A program made the translations under genes and the position numbers. Below the pieces are notes generated by a model, which worked only from the letters and a program-made list of their open reading frames with translations, was not told where the DNA came from and ran no database searches. A stretch of 64,000 nucleotides of DNA from Bdellovibrio sp. 28-41-41. Lineage in GTDB: Bacteria; Bdellovibrionota; Bdellovibrionia; Bdellovibrionales; Bdellovibrionaceae. This document shows, in pieces, positions 15,103 through 37,276 of the stretch (within the stretch, counting starts at the first letter, position 1; each line of letters begins with the position of its first letter). The stretch is from the NCBI GenBank assembly GCA_002256935.1, contig NCGL01000024.1, positions 1 to 64,000 on the forward strand, given 5' to 3'.

Positions 15103-17796
15103 ATGTCTTATCCAAAATTCCCCCGCGTTGCTTTATCGTTCACATTGGTTAGTTTAATGGCCAGTACTGTGCTGGCTGAACAAAACAGCTGTCAGTCTTT
15201 CTACACAGGCATCAAGGCTTACACTCAAAAAGATATGGATCGTCTTCGCAAGAAGTATCAAGGCCTCGAACAAAAACTATATTGGAAATCGTTCGTTGAA
15301 GACGTGAGCGATGTCTCGCAGTTGATCCACACGAGGTTCCAACAAGAGAACATTGCCAATGGTGCACCTATAAAGAATTTCGAGTTATTTGGTCTTGAAA
15401 ACTATAAGGTATTTGTTGCGGCTCGAGAATTTTTGAATCGTATTCCTGAAGGATCTTTCGTGATAAGCCCAGAACTGATTAAAGAAGTTCATGAACGAAG
15501 CGCGTCCGGTTTGCAGAAAGAGTTGCCTTTGTGGAAACGTGCTCTTGGGAAAGATGCCTTTGTTGAAGCGGGCGTATACAAAAAAAGAAATAATCGCGGA
15601 GAGGATCCGTTATTAAATCCACTGACTGAAGAACAATATCAAGTTCTTATAGCCAATCCCTTTACCAAATTCCGCGAATTACCTTGGCCACTAAGCCGCG
15701 AAAACGCTCGTAGAGGTTGGATTCTTTATGGTAATAAAGACAGCGTAGAACGCGACGTTCAAGAGCTAAGCGTATGGGTTAATAAGCAAATGGCCTTAGT
15801 AAAAGTCGGAAAAGCAGATCCCGTCCGCGTGGCTGCTGAGTTCCAATGGAGATATGTTTCAATTCACCCAATGGTCGATGGTAACGGTCGTACATCTATG
15901 CTTCTAGCTAACCGAATTTTGGAAGAAGCTGATCTTCCACCAATTATGATGACCATGTCAGGCTACGATATCTACTATAAGCCGGAAGTATGGGCAGAGA
16001 AAATCAGACAATCTATCTTTGATTTTGAAACATTAATCAACGATGCTCAATTCAAAGAATACATCGACAAAGAAACTCCAAATTTGTACAAGGCGAACTT
16101 CAGCGACGGTCCTCGTTTAGGCTTAACCCCGGAGACATTCGCAAACGCAGGTGCGCGCAGCGAGCTAAACAAATTGAACTCAGCGATCTCTAAACGTTGG
16201 CCAACAATTAAAAGAGAATTGTTTGCTGAAAATGAATCACAAGAGGTTAATCTTGGAAACCAACGGTTTGTTGCAATGATGGACGGTTTCTTTTACAACA
16301 AGCACGGCGTTCCCCATGTTTTACATAAAGATAGCAGTGGAACCTATAAATTGTACCCAATGGCTGAAGAAGCACTATCGCTGTATTCACTAGGCGGAAA
16401 GACTGCTCAAACCGGCGAAGCAGATCAGAGCAAGCGTTTCTTCAAGCGTGGAATGAGTGTACCCATGCGTGATAACTTCCGTACATTCTTTGGATTCATG
16501 AAGCAGTACACAAATCGCACGTTCGATACGGCTTCTATCGAGGTGTTAGATTATAGTATGATCGCTAAAGCAAATAAAGAAGGTTTGCTATTCCTATACG
16601 ATTGGCAAAAACCAATGTTACAGGGCTTAATGAAAATCACCGATACAGATCCTATTAAAGTATTGGCGCCAACACGTGGTTATCAAACTAACTACGAAAA
16701 ATCAGTTCACTTTGGCTACAAAACAAACTTACATGAAATCTTAGCTCAATACCAATTAATGGATCTTAAGTATTCCAATGTGGCTGAGTATGCTCAAGCA
16801 AATGGATTACATGCTGAACTAGCTGAAATTACAGCAAGTCGTAAGAAACTTTTCGATGCCGCCAAGTCTTTATTAGCTGATCGTGCTGTTGAGCTAGAAC
16901 AAGCGCTAATAGCATACCCAGAAAAATTTCCGTCGTCTCAAGAATGGAATTTCTTCCTAGCTTACTATAAAGCCTCTCCTTTAAAGTATTCGTCTTTTGA
17001 AGAATACAACTCGTCAAAAGATAAGGACTACGTTGTCCTGTTACGCGCAGATCAAGGGATGAGTAAAAGAATTGGATTTATATCTAATACTTTGTTCCGT
17101 GAAATTGTAGATAAAGTCCCTGGCGAACAGGCATTTAAAGCTCACTTAAATAAGTTGGTGACTGCATTAGGTAAAGCGTCCAAGACACCAGATGATGAGG
17201 CGTTTATTAAATTGAGCCCTGTTTATAACTTAGTAAAAGTTAAGTACAAGGATGCTAACCGAATGTTACGTAACTTAAACAATGTGTTGCAAATGTCGAA
17301 GTACGATACTCGTAGTATGGCTGCTGAGTTCGATCGAATCTTTGTTGAACATGCGCTACATGCCGTAAATGATCCATTCAAAACTAGTATTTCATTTTCA
17401 ACAAATACTAGTATTTATATACGATCTAAGAAAGTAGAGGCTCCTGCAGAAGCCAAAGCAGATGGCGAAACAACCATAGCCGCAGAAACTACTGAAGCTG
17501 CTAAAGACATCATACCTTTTACATTTGATGCAGACGACGCTCAGGTTTACTTTGTTAAACTTAAAAAATCTGACGTAGATGCGAACGAAGCCTCTAAGTA
17601 CTTCAGACAGTATGAAGTATTAAAGCCTAAAGTAGCGTCTCCGTTTGCGATCATCAAAAGTTTTGGAAACGATTTCTTCGCCCTTGACGGAGCTGGCCCG
17701 ACGACTAAACAAGAGTTGAAAGACAGAACGACGTTCGAAGAACAATTTGTAGCTTTGGAACTAGCGCTAGCCAAACCAGCTAAAAAGAAAAAGTAA
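15103..17796 (+). CDS. Large exported Fic-domain protein
   Basis: 897 residues with a Sec signal peptide (hydrophobic residues 9-24, A-x-A cleavage near 26). A Fic domain is centred on H-P-M-V-D-G-N-G-R-T-S starting at H255, which keeps the catalytic His, the acidic residue and the G-N-G-R nucleotide loop. Fic enzymes usually transfer AMP from ATP to a hydroxyl of a target protein. The 600 residues after the Fic domain match nothing I recognise; an Ala/Glu/Thr-rich linker lies at about 785-805 and the end is A-K-K-K-K. I see no clear S/T-x-x-x-E-G/N inhibitory helix. An exported Fic enzyme needs ATP, so it probably acts in another cell; in a predator the prey is the obvious candidate (inference). 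Confidence 0.85.
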   Translation: MSYPKFPRVALSFTLVSLMASTVLAEQNSCQSFYTGIKAYTQKDMDRLRKKYQGLEQKLYWKSFVEDVSDVSQLIHTRFQQENIANGAPIKNFELFGLENYKVFVAAREFLNRIPEGSFVISPELIKEVHERSASGLQKELPLWKRALGKDAFVEAGVYKKRNNRGEDPLLNPLTEEQYQVLIANPFTKFRELPWPLSRENARRGWILYGNKDSVERDVQELSVWVNKQMALVKVGKADPVRVAAEFQWRYVSIHPMVDGNGRTSMLLANRILEEADLPPIMMTMSGYDIYYKPEVWAEKIRQSIFDFETLINDAQFKEYIDKETPNLYKANFSDGPRLGLTPETFANAGARSELNKLNSAISKRWPTIKRELFAENESQEVNLGNQRFVAMMDGFFYNKHGVPHVLHKDSSGTYKLYPMAEEALSLYSLGGKTAQTGEADQSKRFFKRGMSVPMRDNFRTFFGFMKQYTNRTFDTASIEVLDYSMIAKANKEGLLFLYDWQKPMLQGLMKITDTDPIKVLAPTRGYQTNYEKSVHFGYKTNLHEILAQYQLMDLKYSNVAEYAQANGLHAELAEITASRKKLFDAAKSLLADRAVELEQALIAYPEKFPSSQEWNFFLAYYKASPLKYSSFEEYNSSKDKDYVVLLRADQGMSKRIGFISNTLFREIVDKVPGEQAFKAHLNKLVTALGKASKTPDDEAFIKLSPVYNLVKVKYKDANRMLRNLNNVLQMSKYDTRSMAAEFDRIFVEHALHAVNDPFKTSISFSTNTSIYIRSKKVEAPAEAKADGETTIAAETTEAAKDIIPFTFDADDAQVYFVKLKKSDVDANEASKYFRQYEVLKPKVASPFAIIKSFGNDFFALDGAGPTTKQELKDRTTFEEQFVALELALAKPAKKKK

Positions 17797-32980: not shown

Positions 32981-34984
32981 ATGAAATTCAAAATTTGGTA
33001 CATTTGTTCGATGCTTAAAAACGCAACGGTATTCTTTTTCCTTTCACTTTCAGGATATGCTTACGCAGGCGCTGGCGCCTGTATCGAAGTTTATAATGTA
33101 GTACCTAAAATTACTCGCTTCAGTAAAATCGAAACACAAAATCCACTATTTAACGAAGCTCAGGCTAAACAAATTGGTCAAGTTCTAAGGGAATCACCGG
33201 CATTCGAAAAAAAAATTCAAGCGATGCTTAACCCGTTTAAGCGCTATGAAATGGAAGCTTTATTTTTCAGACAACGCAATCAAAAGGGTGATCCTTCTTA
33301 TTTTACATTGAATCGAAATGCTGACTTACTAGCGGAAGCAGAGCTTGTTGTGATTACTAAATTCCCAAAGGGAGTTTCACTGACGAATGTTGAGTTTGGC
33401 TATCAAAATCAACATAGTAAGAAGGTGCAGAATTTGGGCGTTATACCAGGAATCATGCTTGATGCTAATGGTTTACCGACGCGGTTTTTATTTTATAATC
33501 AAGAACAACTGGAAGTTTTTCGTGCCCACTATTTTGGTCGACCTTTCTCAACAAAAATGAGAACGGCTATTTTGGATATCAACACGGCTTTATTTAAATA
33601 TTTAGAAACTCAACCGGTAGCGCTCGAGAAAGTAGCTGAGTTTGAAAAAAAGCGCGGTTGGCCAGAAGGAACTGCGAAAAAAATTGGATTAGTCTATTAT
33701 TCTTCAGAAGCTGTTGATTTACTAGTGTTTGGAAAAAAACATGGGTTTGATTATGCGGATATGGCGTCTGCGGGGTGGCTGAAACCTTACGTTAATAAAC
33801 ATGGAAGTATCTCGTATCGCGAGAACTACAATGATTCGATCAAAATTCCTTTTTACGATGAAACTAATCCTAGCAAAATTGCATTTTGGCGAACTAGAAA
33901 TCTTAGGTCGGGAGCACCCAAATACCTAAGTTGGCCAAAAGATCGCAGTTTGTTTGAAGAAGCACCCTTGTTCGAGGAATTTTATAATTCTTGGAATTTA
34001 AACAAAGTCAAAGGCAAGCGTATCATACTAACTGAAGGTGAGTTCAAGTGTGCGATCGGTGAGCTTACGACTGGAGTTTTTCACATAGGTGTTCCTGGCA
34101 TCGGGCAGTTTTATACTTCGATGTTAGACAAGATCGTAAAAGCTCAGCCATCCGAAGTGGTTGTTCTATTTGATAGAGATCCCATCGGCAAAGCTTTGCT
34201 TCGCCTAGATGAAGTTACTGACAGTCAAAGAGCCTCTTATTTAATTGCGAAGCAATTGGAAGCTGCGGGAATTTCAGTCAAAGTTGCGACGTTGCCGGAT
34301 GTTTATAATGGTAAGAAGATTGGAATCGATGATTTATTGTTAAGTCACGGGACGGCTCCTTATACTCAAGCGTTAGATCAAGCTGTAACTGCCGATGCCT
34401 ATGCAAAGGCTTTCAAGATCGATGTGCCGTTGTCACTCCTTACAGACCGCCGAAATAAAATACGAAGAGCCGTGCAGAAGTATGATACAGCCAATTCAAG
34501 TGCTGCGGGATTCATGAGTATCGACCAGCGAGCGATTCACATTGATTTGCAAACGTATTTGACACATGTAGAGGACGCGCTTCGTCAATACATGAAAGTC
34601 AAATACCCAGAACGTAGCCAAATGCTGGATCCAAGCGATCGATTTGTAGTGATAAAGCCGGGAACAACGTTAGATCCGGTAACCATACAAACGGTAGAAG
34701 GTAATTTTGATGTGTCCTCGCCGATCATAAAAATCTCGATGACGACCTCTGATGTTAAGAATTGCACAAGTTTGTCCTGTTTTTCTATCAGCAGAGACAG
34801 CAGTCAATGGAGTCACCTGACGGAAGCAGAAAAATTCAAAGCTTTATCGGCCGCACTTGGGGCAATTTTCCCAAAAGATGACTATACCTTTATTAGTAGC
34901 CCGGTGTTTGAAGATCGGCCCCATGCTTTGTTAGTAATTCGTAAAGAAACGCGAACGCCCGTAGCTATAGTTGAACAGTTTTGA
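32981..34984 (+). CDS. Exported DnaG/Toprim-like protein
   Basis: 667 residues. Hydrophobic signal at residues 11-29 (V-F-F-F-L-S-L-S-G-Y-A-Y-A, cleavage near A31), with the ATG at 32981 or 33011 as start. Residues 235-345 resemble the N-part of DnaG-type catalytic cores (A-D-M-A-S-A-G-W-L; I-K-I-P-F-Y; G-A-P-K-Y-L-S-W-P). A Toprim domain follows: T-E-G-E-F-K (E352), V-L-F-D-R-D-P (D398, D400) and G-I-D-D-L-L (450-454), close to DUF3854 of phage and plasmid primases. The catalytic acidic residues are kept. The N-terminal 230 and C-terminal 200 residues are unknown. A primase-like fold outside the cytoplasm is highly unusual. Confidence 0.75.
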   Translation: MKFKIWYICSMLKNATVFFFLSLSGYAYAGAGACIEVYNVVPKITRFSKIETQNPLFNEAQAKQIGQVLRESPAFEKKIQAMLNPFKRYEMEALFFRQRNQKGDPSYFTLNRNADLLAEAELVVITKFPKGVSLTNVEFGYQNQHSKKVQNLGVIPGIMLDANGLPTRFLFYNQEQLEVFRAHYFGRPFSTKMRTAILDINTALFKYLETQPVALEKVAEFEKKRGWPEGTAKKIGLVYYSSEAVDLLVFGKKHGFDYADMASAGWLKPYVNKHGSISYRENYNDSIKIPFYDETNPSKIAFWRTRNLRSGAPKYLSWPKDRSLFEEAPLFEEFYNSWNLNKVKGKRIILTEGEFKCAIGELTTGVFHIGVPGIGQFYTSMLDKIVKAQPSEVVVLFDRDPIGKALLRLDEVTDSQRASYLIAKQLEAAGISVKVATLPDVYNGKKIGIDDLLLSHGTAPYTQALDQAVTADAYAKAFKIDVPLSLLTDRRNKIRRAVQKYDTANSSAAGFMSIDQRAIHIDLQTYLTHVEDALRQYMKVKYPERSQMLDPSDRFVVIKPGTTLDPVTIQTVEGNFDVSSPIIKISMTTSDVKNCTSLSCFSISRDSSQWSHLTEAEKFKALSAALGAIFPKDDYTFISSPVFEDRPHALLVIRKETRTPVAIVEQF

Positions 34985-35041: not shown

Positions 35042-37276
35042 ATGAAATTATTGGTGGGGTTGTTTTTATTAACATGGAATGTTTATGCTTTAGATTCACG
35101 AAGTACGCCGCCGGCAACAAAGCCGCCAGCAGATCGTTCCGCTGATTTAGATCGTGTGAATGTATTTGCAAATAAAAATTCGATGGATCAAGTCTTGAGC
35201 GATCAGAAGTTTCAAGAACGATTCGCGGTTATTTCGAATTCGTTAGATCAACAATGGCCAGTAATAACTACAGACTTAAAAAGTCGCTTCAGTCGCGAGA
35301 TAGATCGTTACAATTTCTCTACCGTTTTTGGGCTTCAAGGTAACAAACTTAAAATTCTAGGCAGCAATGTTGCTGATATTGAATTGAATATTAAAAACTT
35401 TCAAATATCTGCCGATGCCTACTATCGTTTGGAATTAAAACCTTCGTTTCGCGAAGGTAAACAAATGCGGAGAGATATTTACGTTATTGGTCTGAAAGGC
35501 TCTAGTACGATCTCTTTCGGTTCAGAAGTGAGAATCACCTTCTTCCGTGAGTTCGATTCTAAAGCTGACGCTTTATCAAATTTAAAACCTTACGGGTTAG
35601 ATCGTATTCCTAAAAATGCCGAAGATTTGGTTAAGAAAATTAATGTAGATGATGGTGTTCGCGTTGAAGTCATGGGGAATCTAGAAATCTCTAAAGAATT
35701 TAATGATATTGCTAACAGCACTAATTTATCAGCCATTTTAGGTTACGATTTATTCCAAGGATTATTCACAGTAAATATCTATCGCTACAACGTAAACGAT
35801 GTGCGTGTACGTTTCATGGGAACGATCAATCGCGGAACAGTGAAAGCTAAAGTGGGATTGAATTGGCTCTACAGCTTTAAGGGTTCTAAAATTTTGCCAA
35901 GATGGCTAAAAGAACTTTTTGAAGTTAACTTAGATATTAATATTTCAAAGTCATTTAATTTTTTCGACAAATACCCTATCGAAACACATGTAGCCGATTA
36001 CTTTTTCAGATTTAACAGTACGACATTGATGCAAGCATCGGTTCCCCGCGGTTGTGATTTCCAAGTTCCAACAGGAATTGCCTCTATCGATAATGCGGGC
36101 TTAAGCCCCGAATCTGCATTCGACGAAGTTCTTTCTAATGTGCGCACCGGCAAGTTCATGGCCGTATTTAACCCTAACATCGAAGAAGCGGCTCTGTCGG
36201 CTTCGTTTTTAAGAAATGCATCGCGAGCAGAAACAATTGCATGTATGGATGCCTCACTTCCTAACTATAAAAAACGTGTTCAGCATTTTTTCAAAGGCCG
36301 TATGTTGTCCGATGTATTCTCGTTAGGCTTCGGACCAAAGATCAGCCATCTATTGCGCAGTACACATACAGAGGGGAATTCTGAAGTTTATGTAGCATCC
36401 TTAGAAAAAGGCCAAGAGTTTAAGTACTACATCTTATTAAACACGGCGATGAAATCAGTGAATTCATTTTTGTTTGGCCGTTGGGAAAACGAATATGAAA
36501 CAGACTTGGATGCTTTATACCAATCGGATAAAGACAGAAATATTCAAGGCTTCTTAGATTTCGTAAAACGTATTCAGTACCGTGACAAAGTTATGTCGGT
36601 ATCTAAACTCAACGATATCCGCAGTACTCTGAATAGATCGATCCCTGTGAATTTTCCGGATCGCAACAAATTATTAGATTTAGTACCTAAGACTGAACAA
36701 CGTGATGCGTGGATTTCTTTTGTTTATACATTATCTAGCCAGGTTATTTTTGAACTTGAGAAAATGGACAAATCAGTTCTTTATACGAAGCTTTCTAATT
36801 TTATTTTGAATCATCCAGAGAAAAATAAAATGGCGTTACCGGCAGATAATTCAGACAGCGGTGTTCAGAACCAGACCGATTACATTAACGAGATGTATTA
36901 CCGTTTGGTGAAATTGGCGGATTCTATGCAGGACTCAAAAGACCGTTTCCGGGCGCTAGAACAATTAATGAGCGATAAAGTATTCACAGAGTACGTATTC
37001 CGCGAATTCTTCCCATCATTAATCACGACAGACATCACCCCTGATGAAATGAGCATCGCAATGAGCGTGACATCAAAAGACATCACATTAGCTGAAGACC
37101 GCATCGGCAAAAACCAATACTCACCAGTCTACAGCGCAGTGCTATTACTAAGATCCATCCTAAACGACAGATCCCTAGATCTACGCTTAGAAGGCGCCAC
37201 TGCCGTAGATCCAACCTCGGACGCCCTATCATCCGCCGGAAACCCAGTAAACATGAAGGGCTTTAAAGTCTATTAG
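35042..37276 (+). CDS. Large secreted protein, unknown function
   Basis: 744 residues with a Sec signal peptide (1-16, ending V-Y-A). Residues 75-340 are rich in amphipathic strands (I-E-L-N-I-K-N-F-Q-I; V-R-I-T-F-F-R-E-F; V-R-V-R-F-M-G-T-I) as in lipid-facing or outer-membrane proteins; 380-720 are mainly helical. No family recognised. It lies 57 nt after the exported Toprim gene, on the same strand, with AGGGGTG before the ATG. The last ~60 codons switch to A/C-ending codons unlike the rest of the gene. Confidence 0.75.
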   Translation: MKLLVGLFLLTWNVYALDSRSTPPATKPPADRSADLDRVNVFANKNSMDQVLSDQKFQERFAVISNSLDQQWPVITTDLKSRFSREIDRYNFSTVFGLQGNKLKILGSNVADIELNIKNFQISADAYYRLELKPSFREGKQMRRDIYVIGLKGSSTISFGSEVRITFFREFDSKADALSNLKPYGLDRIPKNAEDLVKKINVDDGVRVEVMGNLEISKEFNDIANSTNLSAILGYDLFQGLFTVNIYRYNVNDVRVRFMGTINRGTVKAKVGLNWLYSFKGSKILPRWLKELFEVNLDINISKSFNFFDKYPIETHVADYFFRFNSTTLMQASVPRGCDFQVPTGIASIDNAGLSPESAFDEVLSNVRTGKFMAVFNPNIEEAALSASFLRNASRAETIACMDASLPNYKKRVQHFFKGRMLSDVFSLGFGPKISHLLRSTHTEGNSEVYVASLEKGQEFKYYILLNTAMKSVNSFLFGRWENEYETDLDALYQSDKDRNIQGFLDFVKRIQYRDKVMSVSKLNDIRSTLNRSIPVNFPDRNKLLDLVPKTEQRDAWISFVYTLSSQVIFELEKMDKSVLYTKLSNFILNHPEKNKMALPADNSDSGVQNQTDYINEMYYRLVKLADSMQDSKDRFRALEQLMSDKVFTEYVFREFFPSLITTDITPDEMSIAMSVTSKDITLAEDRIGKNQYSPVYSAVLLLRSILNDRSLDLRLEGATAVDPTSDALSSAGNPVNMKGFKVY

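Follow-up and report, generated by a model that had tools for sequence, protein, structure and literature searches.

The window analysed here, a stretch of 64,000 nucleotides from a contig of Bdellovibrio sp. 28-41-41, encodes a protein that joins a predicted Sec-type signal peptide to a primase core of the DnaG/DUF3854 type. We hold, with about even confidence, that this is a secreted enzyme based on that core and most probably an effector acting on the nucleic acid of prey or host. As judged from profile comparison and modelling, the protein carries the fold of the DnaG RNA-polymerase domain with its metal- and NTP-binding residues intact. DnaG-type primases are known as replication enzymes of the cytoplasm or as proteins that travel with DNA during conjugation. 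If the interpretation is true, a conserved Sec-exported primase in Bdellovibrionota and Omnitrophota would form a new class among secreted nucleic-acid enzymes, and the exported primase core would be a concrete, testable candidate for predator manipulation of prey nucleic acid.

The open reading frame and its parts are listed in Table 1. Alignment with the closest homologues showed that these start at the position corresponding to Met11 (33011). The window gene probably begins there as well, and its residues 1-10 may be untranslated; with either start a signal peptide is predicted, ending in ...SGYAYA and followed by GAGAC. The neighbouring genes on the contig, named by sequence, encode MotA/MotB, an MFS protein, an exported protein and a DEAD helicase, and the source genome also holds its own normal DnaG (L002).

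Table 1. Position of the exported primase-core gene and of its predicted parts in the window.
Feature	Position	Strand	Description and basis
DnaG-like Toprim ORF	32981-34984	+	667 aa; conserved orthologues
Sec-type signal peptide, residues 1-29	32981-33067 (33011-33067 from Met11)	+	Hydrophobic segment and A-x-A; predicted cleavage after AYA (residue 29)
Cys34, first Cys past the signal peptide	33080-33082	+	Alignments; invariant in Bdellovibrionota members
N-terminal region, residues 35-200	33083-33580	+	No known family (no Pfam match); in the AlphaFold2 model a beta-rich part followed by a helical one
DnaG-core N-terminal subdomain, residues 216-320	33626-33940	+	Weak DNAG_N, PHROG_47, hhalign to DnaG, Foldseek
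Toprim/DUF3854 domain, residues 348-458	34022-34354	+	PF12965 above cut-off; E352 G353, D398 D400, D450 D451
Cys357, proposed disulfide partner of Cys34	34049-34051	+	Alignments; joint absence with Cys34 in the Omnitrophota member
C-terminal region, residues 480-667	34418-34981	+	No Pfam match; helical hairpin, then beta domain in the AlphaFold2 model
C595-x4-C600 pair, proposed disulfide	34763-34780	+	Cysteine census and alignment; jointly lost in L005 and L032

A DnaG-core-like region close to DUF3854 had been recognised in a preliminary description of the sequence, and Pfam, PHROGs, hhalign and Foldseek all agree with it. In Pfam, the window protein matched DUF3854 (PF12965) over residues 348-458 at 29.5 bits, above the gathering cut-off of 23 (distant family members: 14.8-22.9 bits, under the cut-off, or no match), and DNAG_N weakly over residues 216-320 (E 0.05); PHROG_47, annotated 'DNA primase', matched residues 220-434 (E 1.2e-11), and the NCBIfam search returned no match. 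Structure prediction, proposed in the same description as a check, led to the same fold. With an AlphaFold2 model built from 10 family members (mean pLDDT 78, pTM 0.76; first 46 residues unordered), the first 20 Foldseek matches in the PDB were all DnaG RNA-polymerase domains (E 7.7e-14 to 3e-10), headed by 5guj (E 7.7e-14; TM-score by target length 0.67) and including S. aureus DnaG with ATP/Mn and E. coli DnaG with ssDNA. Twinkle and T7 gp4 were listed after DnaG, the RNase M5 Toprim ranked far below it, and DnaG-like phage primases were matched among viral structures. By hhalign, the family aligned with DnaGs of the same bacterial family over 252 columns (E 1.2e-6), and a comparison restricted to the cores, with E. 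coli DnaG included, gave E 1e-8. Since structure search and profile-profile comparison both find DnaG, the likeness is not attributable to chance. About 430 residues had been described as belonging to no family: residues ~35-190 and 480-667 are indeed unmatched, but the stretch is shorter than that, DnaG homology beginning near residue 190. The zf-CHC2 zinc-binding domain was not matched in the window protein at E-values up to 10 (Pfam), residues 480-667 gave no Pfam match to a helicase-binding domain, and the protein does not have the architecture of the OLD or RNase M5 Toprim nucleases (Toprim with ABC ATPase, or a small stand-alone Toprim).

The hhalign alignment places R146, R221, K229 and Y230 of E. 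coli DnaG opposite R225, R306, K314 and Y315 of the window protein, and E265, G266, D309 and D311 opposite E352, G353, D398 and D400. All of these are invariant in the 10 aligned members, with the sole exception of K314 (Arg in L033); the Toprim acids singled out beforehand (E352, D398, D400) were exact, and a third acidic site, D450/D451, is invariant across the family alignment as well. In E. coli DnaG, K229 and Y230 are basic-ridge residues that affect the use of the initiating substrate (PMC7367122). At the position of DnaG D269 the exported family has an invariant Lys (K356), and K241 of DnaG has no conserved counterpart.

Signal peptides were scored with a simple home-made rule that asks for a positive start, a hydrophobic stretch and an A-x-A-like site. 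It was satisfied by 11/11 family members, L005 with a weak score, and by none of 14 cytosolic relatives and DnaGs. By this rule, the export signal first noticed in the window protein is kept across the whole clade, with cleavage predicted; neither of the outcomes that the preliminary description had named as refuting it was encountered. Because a stricter rule was passed by 82 of the 325 ORFs sampled from stretches of the source genome, which served as the secretome base rate, 11/11 lies well above that rate, the members not being independent of one another. The cysteines are also informative: mature Bdellovibrionota members with complete sequence contain either four (34, 357, 595, 600) or two, and a census of the complete members found even numbers that vary in pairs. 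Cys595 and Cys600 are both missing from L005 and L032, Cys34 and Cys357 are both missing from the Omnitrophota member, and L032 has, in place of Cys357, a Cys at another position of the Toprim domain. We propose from this pattern that Cys34-Cys357 and Cys595-Cys600 are disulfides, which would imply an oxidising compartment outside the cytoplasm. A lipoprotein reading of Cys34 was rejected, there being no lipobox around this conserved residue.

A motif of the form C-x-x-[FVI]-[YF] recurs a few residues past the signal peptide in exported Bdellovibrionota proteins (window 15103 and 32981; L107:133-1341, L144:8345-8962, L149:228-1403, L019:8891 and 10897, L143:3872), its carriers being Fic, primase-core, Exo_endo_phos and protease proteins together with unassigned ones. 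With ~8 carriers among 217 predicted signal-peptide proteins and a background of ~1% for a slightly looser motif, a post hoc and weak comparison, it is perhaps a sorting tag. At window positions 15103-17796 (+), the carrier is 897 aa long and combines a signal peptide with a Fic/DOC domain (PF02661, E 6.5e-8; motif HPMVDGNGR), a further case of a usually cytosolic enzyme domain bearing an export signal.

The exported primase-core family comprises 11 members, ten from Bdellovibrionota, where they occur in 10 of the 369 genomes searched (five families, six genera), and one from Omnitrophota. A scan with conserved peptide patterns across the genomes of 84,980 species, which could miss divergent members in other lineages, added the Omnitrophota protein and cytosolic relatives from Bacillota, Chloroflexota and others, many of them opening with a zinc-finger-like CxxC...CxxC segment. 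No other member was found in 193 Omnitrophota genomes, and phage, plasmid and viral-contig collections gave no match. The preliminary description had suggested a search for homologues limited to predatory bacteria, and the distribution fits this limit insofar as both phyla hold known or proposed predators; according to a published proposal, Omnitrophota are for the most part predators or parasites (PMC10066038). Its presence in so few Bdellovibrionota genomes argues against a core predation factor. In the phylogenetic tree, the 11 exported members form one group relative to seven cytosolic relatives (support 99/98), and the Omnitrophota protein nests among the Bdellovibrionota proteins, within a group of six rows (support 92/95), which suggests that the exported primase core moved between phyla.

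Identity among members is ~27-57%, with the catalytic acids invariant throughout. Comparison of the two closest species, G059 and G060, gave a dN/dS of 0.075 for the primase-core gene, which shows that it is functional; its dN is ~3 times as high as in the adjacent MFS and exported genes. The window protein is 58% identical to its G059 counterpart, against 82-90% for the neighbours; within the protein, identity is 73% in the core and 39% in the N-terminal 110 residues, and alignment shows that conservation of residues ~135-190 (FGY...LG...GRxF) extends to the Omnitrophota member. Within the genus, the primase-core gene is missing from G061 and G062. On these comparisons, the gene is accessory, fast-changing and under purifying selection.

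Relaxase/T4SS or transfer genes were not found next to the primase-core gene, nor was any plasmid match, and no competence genes adjoin it in the contexts examined. A nearby phage or plasmid origin was rejected on the lack of any match in phages, plasmids or viral contigs. In one genome only (G065), the gene overlaps by 4 bp that of an Exo_endo_phos-family protein with a signal peptide; DNase I-like nucleases belong to this family. On the opposite strand next to the L032 gene lies that of a methyltransferase-family protein with a signal-like N-terminus (L032:5702-6472, -). Downstream of the window gene, positions 35042-37276 (+) encode a 744-aa exported protein of no assigned family. G062 has two homologues of it, one more distant than the other, and G061 a distant one. 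The primase-core gene and that of the 744-aa protein stay together in G059 and G060; in G062 the 744-aa protein adjoins a DEAD-box helicase, with no Toprim-gene match or MFS nearby, and in G063/G065 the Toprim gene has other surroundings, without the 744-aa protein. General linkage of the two was rejected, the pairing being confined to these closest species.

The Omnitrophota member (L038) is a protein of 1856 aa in which an exported N-terminal module of ~350 residues precedes the primase core. The core is followed by what reads as a second, degenerate Toprim-like stretch and by a tail that is dsRNA-binding-like (dsrm E 2e-4, just under the cut-off; best phmmer match DRB2, E 0.005, with TARBP2 also listed), for which a fold model reached a pLDDT of 38, too poor for use. 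The N-terminal module (L038:4453-5500) occurs ~60 times in that 1.7-Mb genome (G369) and is present at 2-84 copies per genome in 20/20 genomes of the Omnitrophota family, in proteins of very different lengths. In the 14 proteins scanned the module itself had no Pfam match, and the cargo of some was assigned to PPDK, radical SAM with histidine phosphatase, phosphoglucomutase (PGM/PMM), WD40 or ATPase P-loop. The primase-core family has in this way led to a far larger family of exported Omnitrophota proteins, whose cargo is swappable and often enzyme-like.

If the protein is a secreted effector, it would leave the cytoplasm via Sec, lose its signal peptide and fold with one or two disulfides. 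Release would be into the envelope or the outside and, if the life cycle is predatory, into bdelloplast and prey, where Mg-dependent nucleotidyl transfer on prey DNA or RNA could take place and prey nucleic acid would be interfered with or processed. The retained NTP-initiating basic ridge makes primer-type synthesis somewhat likelier than cleavage, and such synthesis would need access to the NTP-containing prey cytoplasm. A bolder form of this proposal, speculative and on balance unlikely, is that a secreted primase-type polymerase, shared through horizontal transfer between predators belonging to two phyla, enters the prey and uses prey NTPs on prey nucleic acid, and that in Omnitrophota it is one cargo of the large exported family with the shared module. 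The proposed Cys34-Cys357 disulfide would lie beside the catalytic Glu, and its reduction in the prey cytoplasm might perhaps switch the enzyme on.

Among the other explanations, a secreted Toprim nuclease, with the primase core turned hydrolase and digesting prey or environmental DNA or RNA for nutrition, deserves serious weight even though we think it rather improbable. The metal site is intact, no NTPs would be needed outside the cell, an Exo_endo_phos-family protein is the neighbour in G065, the RNase M5 Toprim is also among the structure matches, though far under DnaG, and early predation involves exported nucleases (PMC2797640). A plain nuclease, however, would not need the entire N-terminal subdomain of DnaG, nor its NTP/template residues, which are invariant here, and the DnaG match in Foldseek stands far above that of any nuclease. 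The protein might instead serve the bacterium itself, as a periplasmic housekeeping or DNA-uptake factor handling, for example, incoming single-stranded DNA. The sporadic distribution, with absence even from close relatives, the divergence faster than that of neighbouring genes and the lack of adjoining competence genes make such a role quite unlikely, although Sec export alone reaches the periplasm and disulfides would suit that compartment.

The family has lost the zinc-finger domain that binds template, together with the D269 and K241 equivalents, which would fit a pseudo-primase that only binds and, outside the cytoplasm, captures nucleic acid, NTPs or alarmones; with all catalytic acids invariant despite the wide divergence, and with purifying selection, we give this very little weight. 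An ordinary cytosolic mobile-element primase whose signal-like N-terminus is non-functional is scarcely credible. The nearest cytosolic relatives found do include DUF3854-type primase proteins with a zinc finger, but the exported family keeps its signal peptide in quite different chromosomal surroundings, shows cysteine pairing, lacks zinc finger, helicase and transfer genes, and has no match in the phage, plasmid and viral collections. This last explanation was rejected on the conserved signal peptide and the missing zinc finger.

In open-licence full-text literature, no description of a Sec-exported DnaG-type primase was found, and the closest known systems each share only part of its features. 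With the DnaG RNA-polymerase domain (S. aureus 4edg, B. subtilis 5guj, E. coli 3b39) the window protein has in common both subdomain folds, the metal acids and the Arg/Lys/Tyr of the NTP site; it differs in its signal peptide, disulfide-type cysteines and new N- and C-terminal regions, and in the absence of zinc-binding and DnaB-binding domains. DnaG is moreover a cytoplasmic replication protein, whereas the signal peptide of the exported family is conserved and the genome has a separate DnaG. DUF3854 proteins of plasmids and integrative elements, cyanobacterial CyRepA among them, share the window protein's version of Toprim, with an EGEFK-type motif; CyRepA couples DUF3854 to a helicase in cyanobacterial plasmid replication (PMC10079941). 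The described DUF3854 replication proteins are cytosolic, whereas the window protein is predicted to be exported, single-core and chromosomal. The conjugative primases TraC1 (RP4) and SogL (R64), which pass into recipient cells (PMC5512222), are Toprim primases acting in another cell, as is proposed here; unlike them, moved as they are during conjugation, the window protein has a Sec signal and no accompanying transfer or relaxase genes. Finally, early predatory endonucleases of Bdellovibrio are predicted to be exported (PMC2797640), and Sec signals send proteins into the medium or supernatant in B. bacteriovorus (PMC12622784). The window protein would resemble these nucleases as a secreted enzyme aimed at nucleic acid in predation, and differs from them in its fold and in an active site of the primase type.
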